A stretch of DNA of 64,000 bases from Microbacterium paludicola (GTDB lineage Bacteria; Actinomycetota; Actinomycetes; Actinomycetales; Microbacteriaceae). Where the stretch lies: positions 62,001 to 126,000 of the forward strand of contig NZ_JADGLL010000001.1 of assembly GCF_015235415.1 (NCBI RefSeq), in the 5' to 3' direction. Under the pieces are notes generated by a model that was given only the letters and a program-made list of their open reading frames with translations, was not told the DNA's origin and did no database searches. The translations under genes and the position numbers were made by a program. Shown piece by piece: positions 2,826-41,898 of this stretch; the stretch's first letter is position 1, and each line of letters starts with the position of its first letter.

Positions 2826-3056
2826 GTGCTGGCCGCCGCGCTCGAGCACCTCGTCAAGGGGATCGTCGATCACCCGGATGATGTGCGCATCGACTCGACC
2901 ACCTCGTCTCGCGGGGATGTGCTGGAAGTGCACGTCCACGCCGACGACCGTGGCCGGGTGATCGGGCGCGGCGGCCGTACCGCGAAGGCACTGCGCACGC
3001 TCGTCGCCGCTCTGGCGGACGGCAAGCGCGTGCGCGTCGACGTCGCGGACGACTGA
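2826..3056 (+). CDS. khpA: KH-domain RNA-binding protein (KhpA type)
   Basis: A 76-residue single KH domain with the RNA-binding GxxG loop visible in RVIGRGGRTAKALR. It starts with GTG two bases after the rpsP stop. The gene sits between rpsP and rimM in most actinobacteria and Firmicutes. Homologues (YlqC/KhpA) bind RNA together with KhpB and influence cell division and envelope synthesis. Length and position match the family exactly. Confidence 0.93.
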   Translation: MLAAALEHLVKGIVDHPDDVRIDSTTSSRGDVLEVHVHADDRGRVIGRGGRTAKALRTLVAALADGKRVRVDVADD

Positions 3057-3057
3057 C

Positions 3058-3648
3058 GTGGCAGCCGCGAAGCCCGCGAAGAACCAGTTGCGTGTCGGCC
3101 GCCTCGTCAAGGCCCACGGGCTCAAGGGCGCCCTCAAGCTCGAGCTGTACACCGACGACCCCGACGGCCGTTTTGTGCCCGGGGCGTCGTTCACCCTGCA
3201 GGTGCCTGAGCACTCGCAGTGGCACGGCAAGTCCATCACGGTGCGCGAGTTCCGCTGGATGAACCAGAGCCCCGTCGTCTTCTTCGAGGGCGTGGACGAC
3301 CGCAACGCGGCCGATACCCTGGTCCGCGCGATCCTGTGGGTCGACGAGGACGAGGACGCGCCCGCCGAGCCCGATGCCTGGTACGACCACCAGCTCGTCG
3401 GCCTTGACGTCGTGCGTGACGGCGCCGTCGTGGGCAAGGTCGCCCGCGTCGAGCACTTCCCGGCCCAGGATCTTCTCGTCGTCGAGACCGGTGCGGGCGA
3501 GGTGCTCGTGCCCTTCGTCGCCGCGATCGTCCCCGAGGTCGACATCGAGGCCGGCAGGGTCGTCGTGACGCCGCCCGCCGGTCTGTTCGAGGAGCTGCCC
3601 GAGCCCGAGCCGGCCGCCGAGGCGGAGACGCCCGCTTCCGAGGACTGA
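3058..3648 (+). CDS. rimM: Ribosome maturation factor RimM
   Basis: RimM binds S19 and helps mature the 30S head domain. The N-terminal beta-barrel ([20 protein letters not shown], residues 12-31) and the C-terminal PRC-barrel ([12 protein letters not shown], about residue 107) are both present. The GTG start overlaps nothing but follows the KH stop by one base. The last 20 residues form an acidic Pro/Ala/Glu tail ([15 protein letters not shown]), similar to those on S16 and S2 in this window. The downstream start of trmD is 5 bases away. Confidence 0.97.
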
Positions 3649-3653
3649 TCCCC

Positions 3654-4367
3654 GTGCGCACTTCGGCTCGCTCCGCTCGCTCAGCACACCGGATCGACAT
3701 CGTCACGATCTTCCCGTCGTTCTTCGACGTGCTCGACGTCTCACTGATCGGCAAGGCCCGCGAGAAGGGCCTTCTCGACCTGCGGGTGCACGACCTGCGC
3801 GACTGGACGCACGACCGCCACCGCACGGTCGACGACACTCCCTACGGCGGCGGCGCCGGCATGGTGATGAAGCCCGAGCCGTGGGGCGCGGCGCTCGACG
3901 AGATCCTCGGTGACGACGCCGTGCTCGTCGTGCCGACGCCCTCGGGTGAGGTGTTCCGGCAGCCGATGGCGCGAGAACTCGCCCAGGAGCAGCAGCTGGT
4001 GTTCGCCTGCGGGCGGTACGAGGGAATCGACCAGCGCGTGATCGACCATTACGCCGCTGTCGGCCGTGTGCGGCTCGTGAGCATCGGCGACTACGTGCTC
4101 AACGGCGGCGAGGTCGCGTCGATGGCAATGATCGAGGCCGTCACGCGCCTCATCCCCGGTTTTATGGGCAACCCCGAGAGCCTCGTCGAGGAGTCGCACG
4201 AGGACGGCCTGCTCGAGTACCCGATCTACACCAAGCCCGCCGTCTGGCGCGGCCTGGAGGTGCCGCCGGTGCTGCTGAGCGGCAACCACGGCGCCGTCGC
4301 CGCCTGGCGCCGCGAGCAGAGCATCGAGCGCACGCGCGAGCGGCGCCCCGACCTTCTGTCGGATTGA
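3654..4367 (+). CDS. trmD: tRNA (guanine-N1)-methyltransferase TrmD
   Basis: A SPOUT-class methyltransferase that makes m1G37 in tRNA and prevents frameshifting; normally essential. The knotted AdoMet site is clear: [32 protein letters not shown] and [19 protein letters not shown]. The only plausible start is GTG at 3654, supported by GAGGA 10 bases upstream. The usual N-terminus [10 protein letters not shown] is interrupted: 11 extra residues ([11 protein letters not shown]) lie between R2 and I-D-I-V, encoded by a dispersed repeat (see 3660-3692). The rest is of normal length (237 aa). Confidence 0.97.
3660..3692 (+). repeat. 33-bp repeat-derived in-frame insert in trmD
   Basis: Codons 3-13 of trmD read ACT TCG GCT CGC TCC GCT CGC TCA... 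and encode [11 protein letters not shown], a segment absent from usual TrmD proteins. The reverse complement reads TGAGCGAGCGGAGCGAGCCGAAG, matching other dispersed copies in the window (29051, 47286, 11909). The length (11 codons) preserves the frame, and removing it restores M-R-I-D-I-V. Confidence 0.7.
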
Positions 4368-4368
4368 T

Positions 4369-4389
4369 AGCTCGCTTCGCTCGCGCCTC
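4369..4389 (+). repeat. Dispersed GCTCGCTTCGCTCGC-type repeat
   Basis: AGCTCGCTTCGCTCGCGCCTC directly follows the trmD stop. The same 15-base core GCTCGCTTCGCTCGC occurs at 41709 and 41877, likewise just downstream of genes. Confidence 0.6.
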
Positions 4390-41004: not shown

Positions 41005-41709
41005 ATGGAGATCCGCGGAGCCACGCTGCTGCCGGCACGGCGCGAAGACATCGAGCTTCACACAAGCGACGGCCTCAGCCTCGTCGGTGAGCTCTCGCTG
41101 CCGGCCGACAGGGAACCCGTCGCGACGCTCGTCACGCTGCATCCGCTGCCGACGCACGGCGGCTTCATGGACTCGCACATCATCCGCAAGGCCGCCGCGC
41201 GCCTGCCCGCCCTTGCGGACCTCGCCGTGCTGCGGTTCAACACGCGCGGCACGACGTCGCCACGCGGCACGAGCGACGGACAGTTCGGCGAGGGCGTCGC
41301 GGAGGAGGCCGATGTCGCCGCCGCCATGGCGTTCGTCGCGGAGCGCGGTCTGCCCGACCCCTGGCTCCTCGGCTGGTCGTTCGGCACCGAGCTGGCCCTG
41401 AAGTACGGGCGGCAGCACAACGTCCGAGGGACGATCCTGCTGTCGCCTCCGCTTCACCGCACGACGGATGATGAGCTCCGCGCGTGGGAGGGGGATCCGC
41501 GACCGCTCGTCGCGCTGATCCCGGATTTCGACGACTACCTGCGCCCCGCCGAGGCCGCCGAGCGCTTCTCGCTCATCCCGCACATCCGGCTGATCGATGT
41601 CGCCGAGGGCAAGCACCTCTGGGTCGGCGAGAAGCAGACGTATCGCGTGCTCAGCGAGATCGTGGGCGCGGTCAATCCCGACGCGCTGCCGCTGCCGATG
41701 TCCTATTAG
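41005..41709 (+). CDS. Alpha/beta hydrolase
   Basis: A 234-residue hydrolase. The nucleophile elbow is LGWSFGTELAL, the oxyanion region TLHPLPTHGG, and the late His in EGKHLWVGE. RFNTRGTTSPRGTSDGQFGEG is typical of the bacterial CIB/YeiG-like group. ATG 41005 has GGAGGGAG upstream. The substrate is unknown. Dispersed repeats and a hairpin follow. Confidence 0.85.
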   Translation: MEIRGATLLPARREDIELHTSDGLSLVGELSLPADREPVATLVTLHPLPTHGGFMDSHIIRKAAARLPALADLAVLRFNTRGTTSPRGTSDGQFGEGVAEEADVAAAMAFVAERGLPDPWLLGWSFGTELALKYGRQHNVRGTILLSPPLHRTTDDELRAWEGDPRPLVALIPDFDDYLRPAEAAERFSLIPHIRLIDVAEGKHLWVGEKQTYRVLSEIVGAVNPDALPLPMSY

Positions 41710-41729
41710 CTCGCTTCGCTCGCGCGTCC
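41708..41729 (+). repeat. Dispersed GCTCGCTTCGCTCGC repeat, copy 1
   Basis: AGCTCGCTTCGCTCGCGCGTCC begins within the stop codon of the hydrolase gene and matches 4369-4389 over 17 bases. Confidence 0.6.
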
Positions 41730-41874: not shown

Positions 41875-41898
41875 ACGCTCGCTTCGCTCGCACGCCGG
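41872..41898 (+). repeat. Dispersed GCTCGCTTCGCTCGC repeat, copy 2
   Basis: CGCACGCTCGCTTCGCTCGCACG shares the 15-base core with the copies at 4369 and 41708. Confidence 0.6.

Follow-up and report, generated by a model that had tools for sequence, protein, structure and literature searches.

A 33-nt repeat unit at the start of trmD in Microbacterium and the occurrence of its subfamily at gene starts

The trmD locus and its product

The window, that is the whole 64-kb stretch of Microbacterium paludicola DNA analysed here, carries on its forward strand, at positions 3654..4367, the gene trmD for tRNA (guanosine(37)-N1)-methyltransferase, a protein of 237 amino acids which starts at a GTG codon and bears an 11-residue N-terminal insert. 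The TrmD equivalog profiles match across the catalytic region (NF000648, 319.5 bits with a cut-off of 220; TIGR00088, 264.8 bits with a cut-off of 195), and the alignment to the NCBIfam TrmD models, which is above cut-off, begins at residue 13. The preceding gene on the same strand (3058..3648 in the list of open reading frames), which we take from gene order and sequence to be rimM, ends with a TGA stop codon 5 nt before the trmD start, and a candidate ribosome-binding site, GAGGA, is found in the sequence at 3640..3644 (+), 9 nt before the GTG. The earlier note on this DNA had claimed that trmD has no later start; indeed, from the GTG at 3654 to the conserved trmD core the sequence has no further in-frame ATG, GTG or TTG.

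In this genome, as in M. marinilacus, trmD directly follows rimM, unlike in many Microbacterium (loci L003-L030), where the region upstream of trmD holds a GTCACAC..CGGAAACA motif and, 6-8 nt ahead of the ATG, a TAGACT box, an arrangement that looks like a leaderless promoter. An open reading frame antisense to rimM (window 2854-3687, minus strand), which begins MLSERSEPK, is produced by the repeat and is likely a false gene call.

The extra bases of trmD span positions 3660..3692 and, as seen from the empty sites of relatives, measure exactly 33 nt and form codons 3-13 in frame, which bears out the claim of the earlier note that 11 codons had been added after codon 2. They represent one unit of the repeat subfamily F, inserted on the minus strand, i.e., inverted relative to trmD, between codons 2 and 3, and are probably translated as an N-terminal tail. 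The unit contains at 3667..3683 (-) the repeat core TGAGCGAGCGGAGCGAG, identified through the genome-wide core count and consisting of a GC-GGA-GC mini-hairpin with flanking GA/GA steps. The inverted strand of the F unit is free of stop codons in all frames, and the copy at trpA, when turned round and read in the trmD frame, likewise yields an 11-residue peptide.

Within the window, the 18-mer GCTCGCTCCGCTCGCTCA has one exact match, the trmD insert itself. With up to 3 mismatches it is found at 5 window sites against 1.01 expected, a number reached in none of 100 shuffles. One of these imperfect core copies lies just 3′ of the trmD stop codon (4370..4387, minus strand; 3 mismatches to the 18-mer and 1 to the 16-nt core), and further ones are located at 41709-41726 and 41877-41894. 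The copies at 4370-4387 and 41709-41726 sit at or directly after apparent stop codons (TGATAGCTCGCTTCGCTCGC and TATTAGCTCGCTTCGCTCGC, respectively); such imperfect copies at stop codons may constitute another class, tied to gene ends.

As for the protein, a structure model built from 13 sequences, of moderate confidence (mean pLDDT 75, pTM 0.66), places the beginning of the first strand at residue 12 and gives residues 1-7 a pLDDT <50. Several solved TrmD chains align with the present TrmD only from chain residue 17-26 onward, and their unaligned starts are read as N-terminal tags. Because the modelled fold starts at residue 12 and the solved chains appear to be N-terminally tagged, the tail is probably tolerated by TrmD. 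Judged from the sequence, this tail would be translated, and it is basic and probably floppy.

The repeat family and its association with gene starts

The earlier note had also described the 33 bases as a repeat seen at other sites. Genome-wide this is the case: the reverse-complement core TGAGCGAGCGNAGCGAG has 102 exact copies in the 3.29-Mb genome and its reversed control has none. The other sites of the window, however, are imperfect, the good copies lying elsewhere in the genome. We read the 99 distinct contexts of the core copies and set classes by the bases flanking the core: class A, with CGT on the 5′ side and mostly ACG on the 3′ side; class B, with TTGC..GCGA; class C, with GGT..ACC; class D, with GGC..GCC; class E, with CAC..GTG; and class F, with GTRC..GTG plus one GCAT..ATG copy, which includes the trmD copy. 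Four core copies fit no class. The copies frequently occur in arrays and opposed pairs, and several are located at contig ends. Overall, 68 of the 99 have no overlying coding-like segment; such a segment covers all 7 F copies, and 24 of the 92 others. The subfamily F unit reads CGNYGYRCTGAGCGAGCGNAGCGAGNCGAAGTG and is about 33 nt long.

In relatives the core was counted 5 times in M. marinilacus, 35 in M. barkeri, 40 in M. fluvii, 5 in genome G089 and not at all in two others. Across the class, in a sample of 394 genomes, a longer pattern is present in 7 of the 12 genomes of the genus (this one included), in none of the 9 from other genera of the family and, as a single copy, in 1 of the remaining 373.

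An alignment of 79 copies indicates a conserved outer stem, 99.2% of whose cells pair and which covaries, with 53 two-sided changes versus 16.1 in shuffled data and at most 22 when the partners are slid. The inner part reads GA-GC-GA-GC-GNA-GC-GA-GNC-GA and thus contains GC-GNA-GC, described in passages of one study as an extraordinarily stable DNA mini-hairpin whose GNA loop accepts any N (PMC4686876); the d(GCGNAGC) molecules of those passages are synthetic oligonucleotides, and no genomic repeat figures in them. The GA steps of the repeat presumably pair as well. When the purine strand was folded as RNA, classes A, B, D, and E gave the expected hairpin, and when it was folded as DNA, class B did; the hairpin is absent from the minimum-energy folds of class C and of two direct F copies, and for the trmD copy the outer stem alone was obtained. 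Shuffled sequences give DNA folds no worse than those of the trmD copy and class B. Standard folding parameters are known to handle tandem G.A steps poorly.

For each copy of the genome we then tested whether a coding-like open reading frame begins, on the element's own strand, at its 3′ end. This is the case for 6 of the 7 F copies (which occupy 6 loci), while the seventh is the trmD copy, whose orientation is opposite to that of the others: its gene runs on the other strand and starts immediately ahead of the element. Among the other classes the same-strand test is positive for 0/43 copies in A, 0/19 in B, 0/7 in C, 0/5 in D, and 1/6 in E, i.e., 1/80; two other-strand tests add one match in B and one in D, so that at most 3/80 copies compare with 7/7 in F. 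Classes A-D lack a 3′ start codon by definition, and the fair controls are therefore class E (1/6) and the extended type described below (0/12). Twelve of the 99 copies stand outside these counts, 10 being near a contig or locus edge and 2 unclassed.

A 27-nt F pattern which includes the GTG is present in 31 of 247 genomes, and we read 29 loci with 30 copies in genomes other than this one. A gene starts at 17 of the 18 short F copies, and at none of the 12 copies of an extended type, in which the same 27-nt motif continues GTGACGAAAC. The 17 copies correspond to 9 junctions: hom (five copies), hisI (three), trpB and a UvrD-like helicase (two each), and five occurring once. According to NCBIfam/Pfam, the genes downstream of the F copies in our genome are trpA, ispE, rsgA, and those of an ABC-transporter ATPase and a bPH-domain protein; elsewhere they are hom, hisI, aroB, trpB, and genes for the UvrD-like helicase, a CoA transferase, an acyl-CoA dehydrogenase, another ABC ATPase, and a branched-chain permease (at L222 and L226 the downstream genes are named by likeness alone). 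The upstream genes are presumably trpB, aroA, ksgA, pyrC, and lysA, judging from their sequences.

Direct F copies often lie right behind the old start codon and provide a new GTG together with a stop/start overlap (trpA, ispE, lysA-hom, hisI). In 8 of the 17 gene-start copies of other species, an ATG, GTG or TTG precedes the new start by exactly 33 nt; in the 5 hom copies the distance is 32 nt, and the remaining 4 show neither spacing. The lysA-hom junction illustrates this arrangement: the site is ...ATG|ACCGAC in empty relatives and ATG|CCCGTACTGAGCGAGCGAAGCGAGTCGAAGTG|ACCGAC in filled ones. In the filled state the old ATG begins a leader of 11 codons (MPVLSERSESK or a diverged version), and the TGA of this leader overlaps the GTG that hom has newly acquired. 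Nine of the 29 Microbacterium sequences at this junction (L246-L275) are filled, in a patchy distribution which takes at least 7 changes on the tree of this site. At trpA of the present genome the unit lies behind an ATG, the upstream frame being extended by CDVLSERSESK and the stop/start overlap restored; the core was found in 0 of the 12 trpA loci fetched from relatives, two of which (G038 and G150) are one genome. At ispE, F units occur in tandem with a 33-nt period.

Five such tandem units, every one ending in GTG, precede ispE at L151 (contig C50 of this genome, about 94727-94887), and three of them are a diverged variant with GACGCCGG in the core. At L165, L164, and L033 the upstream reading frames continue into the repeat, where they end in ...LSERSESK and a stop codon, which constitutes a trap for annotation. 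Finally, degenerate copies resembling gene starts, e.g. MRRTERPKGVEV-TEP behind AAGGAG, were seen at L330 (contig C61:13473 of this genome) and L326-L329, suggesting drifted old insertions.

The trmD insert, with similar ones at exactly this spot in at least five other species of the genus (see below), suggests that a tiny repeat keeps landing at gene starts, or is tolerated only there. Alternatively, the F copies could be kept as a domesticated module for translation coupling or initiation, made of the hairpin, the new GTG and the RTGA overlap, the tail of TrmD then being an incidental or functional by-product. Their position at gene starts, the regenerated stop/start overlaps, the lysA-hom leader MPVLSERSESK with its stop overlapping the hom GTG, and the covarying outer stem are all consistent with such a role. 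On the other hand, the patchy presence at trmD, hom, and trpA across relatives speaks against a needed function, the covariation may stem from the needs of mobility, and the trmD element is inverted and creates no coupling; we regard this explanation as rather doubtful.

Empty sites and recurrence at trmD

Comparison with the trmD starts of sister species yields the empty site. In M. marinilacus the junction reads rimM-TGA-TCCGC-GTGCGC|ATCCAC, and in G303 (the nearest sequence, 91% identical) and G259 it reads ATGCGC|ATCGAC; the site is also empty in G089, and in G096 (L400), which is sister to the filled G240 and has the same flanks as the latter (caacgcATGCGC|ATAGAC). In the filled/empty pairs of trmD and lysA-hom the placement of the insert is ambiguous by about 1-2 nt (1 nt in trmD), and no target duplication stands out clearly; the outer stem is short.

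The 33-nt insert also occurs at this nucleotide and in this orientation in G334, G240, G216, and G299, while G208 has a 24-nt version at this site, also in this orientation, reading MRTPSRSAHR. The inserts stand behind RTGCGC, or TTGCGC in the case of G334; all six have a length which is a multiple of 3 and are stop-free, and those of our genome (G000) and G240 differ at 1 of 33 positions. The in-frame entry of a dispersed repeat into trmD, which the earlier note had proposed, is thus supported by the empty sites, the genome-wide repeat and the lack of a later start, and what we find is not the same N-terminus in relatives without a genome-wide repeat. The case is made stronger by the similar N-terminus present in five scattered species. 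Five of the 11 changes inside the trmD insert fall at third positions, all synonymous, a weak bias with too few changes to support coding-type selection on the tail.

Among the trmD starts parsed, 6 of 175 have the insert and the other 169 consist of the start, one residue and the core; this fraction is not a prevalence, as the sample is non-random and includes the best rows of a protein search. The parsed starts come from 180 loci, of which L092, L099, L139, L140, and L386 were unparsed and excluded, the first four showing an ordinary trmD start by eye; some loci across the two collections belong to one genome (e.g. G038 and G150). The protein search, performed with the first 40 residues of TrmD, matched 363 of 366 genus genomes, and among the matches listed at least five (G000, G334, G240, G216, and G299) aligned from residue 1; further insert-bearing genomes may exist beyond these. 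A strict DNA pattern, which demanded ATCGAY after the insert, matched in 1 of 366 genomes and pointed to an insert private to our genome. This idea was rejected because a looser pattern (with some element match anywhere in 75 of 361 genomes), which led to G240, and the protein search together gave G240 and four more species.

A quick tree built from 165 different trmD sequences with the insert removed requires at least 6 changes to explain the distribution; 71 of its 162 inner branches are weakly supported. A tree constrained to group the six carriers in one clade is rejected (p-AU 6.58e-42), and explaining the pattern by one gain would take 21 losses on the sampled tree. From this we infer that the six trmD insertions are separate events.

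The six inserts share orientation and position and have nearly the same ends, and those of G000 and G240 are almost identical. A single insertion in trmD, followed by many losses or by spread between species through recombination of the trmD 5′ end, would account for these likenesses. At lysA-hom, moreover, close pairs (e.g. L247/L248) differ in their filled state, which points to frequent gain, loss or exchange at that junction. Besides the rejected clade and the losses required, this scenario is opposed by the sequence directly after the insert, which matches that of each carrier's own kin where a close relative is at hand: G240 and the empty G096 both have ATAGACGTCGTC, and G000 and G303 both have ATCGACATCGTC. 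Any transferred tract would therefore have been tiny, and we consider a single origin unlikely in comparison with separate insertions.

Relation to known repeats and proposed origin

The repeat is read as a variant of REP/RPE-like repeats. Like REP/REPIN sequences it is a short imperfect hairpin of high copy number, found mostly outside coding-like segments, and passages of one study report that some REPs lie inside genes, also at the N-termini of open reading frames (PMC3733652). It is unlike them in its GA/GA steps, its GNA loop and in having one subfamily bound to gene starts. A classical REP/REPIN origin with mobilization by a RAYT (Y1) transposase, which the hairpin, the copy number, the arrays and opposed pairs, and the many copies without a coding-like segment could suggest, is very unlikely. 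Indeed, Y1_Tnp (PF01797) was detected in 0 of 23 genus genomes, our own included, and in 1 of 38 genomes overall, against 5 of 14 known genomes in the control; in addition, neither the GTAG nor the CGTC tag given for REP families in the same passages (PMC3733652) is found at the hairpin foot in the consensus of the 79 copies.

Most descriptions of short palindromic repeats place them between genes. Their in-frame entry into genes is already known from Rickettsia, whose palindromic elements (RPEs) are inserted in frame into genes; passages of the sources further state that an RPE-bearing guanylate kinase stayed active with a changed substrate affinity (PMC10969869, PMC2229807). The present repeat resembles them in being inserted in frame into a conserved protein gene (trmD, in 6 species) and differs, as far as the descriptions in these passages can be compared, in its length and placement, RPEs being about 150 bp long and our unit 33 nt, at start codons in Microbacterium. 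MITEs such as Correia, ERIC, and BOX resemble our repeat in being small and non-autonomous and in having reading frames that are fused to genes, and differ in being generally much longer (107-155 bp versus 33 nt) (PMC2229807). Our repeat may further differ from MITEs in its target site, at which no clear duplication was seen.

Neither this repeat nor repeats bound to start codons were found in the literature searched, from which most subscription journals are absent. Two core 16-mers, one reverse complement, and the peptide LSERSESK gave no match there; the shorter LSERSE gave three matches, in papers on influenza vaccines, stem-cell donor search, and tuberculosis.

The idea that the repeat is untranslated, TrmD starting at a non-standard ATC or ATA (the old third codon) behind a leader, can practically be set aside, as the native RTG (TTG in G334) is kept, here together with GAGGA, the six inserts, the 24-nt version of G208 included, are stop-free multiples of 3, and ATC and ATA are rare as start codons.

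The explanation that we favour and consider probable is the following. A short non-autonomous, hairpin-forming Microbacterium repeat of subfamily F would have entered trmD in inverted orientation between codons 2 and 3. With a length of 33 nt and an inverted strand free of stop codons in every frame, the unit leaves the gene open; the native GTG and the GAGGA site are kept, and TrmD would be made with an 11-residue N-terminal tail. As no PF01797 gene was found in the 23 genus genomes and the unit lacks a GTAG/CGTC tag, we think of a non-autonomous hairpin element moved by some enzyme. It would survive mainly where both neighbouring genes keep working; a unit which ends in GTG and regenerates an RTGA overlap would be among the few insertions that an operon junction survives. 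The bias towards start codons would reflect a preference of the insertion process combined with selection. Given the recurrence at the same nucleotide in trmD, the insertion process itself may prefer start codons; the inverted trmD copies do not share the direct orientation that is the rule at other F sites. As a whole, the picture of a 33-nt mobile unit aimed at translation starts, whose own replacement GTG and stop/start overlap let both neighbours survive, and which re-enters the same trmD nucleotide in separate lineages without a RAYT-type enzyme, is possible and is put forward tentatively.

The repeated insertion at one trmD nucleotide is a natural experiment which may separate targeting from selection, and the recurrence offers a simple test of how protein tails and stop/start overlaps arise. 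For annotators, odd ...LSERSESK C-termini and N-termini like the tail of TrmD are derived from the repeat and are not gene-calling errors. For the bacteria themselves, subfamily F has altered the termini of several metabolic enzymes as well as those of an essential tRNA methyltransferase.
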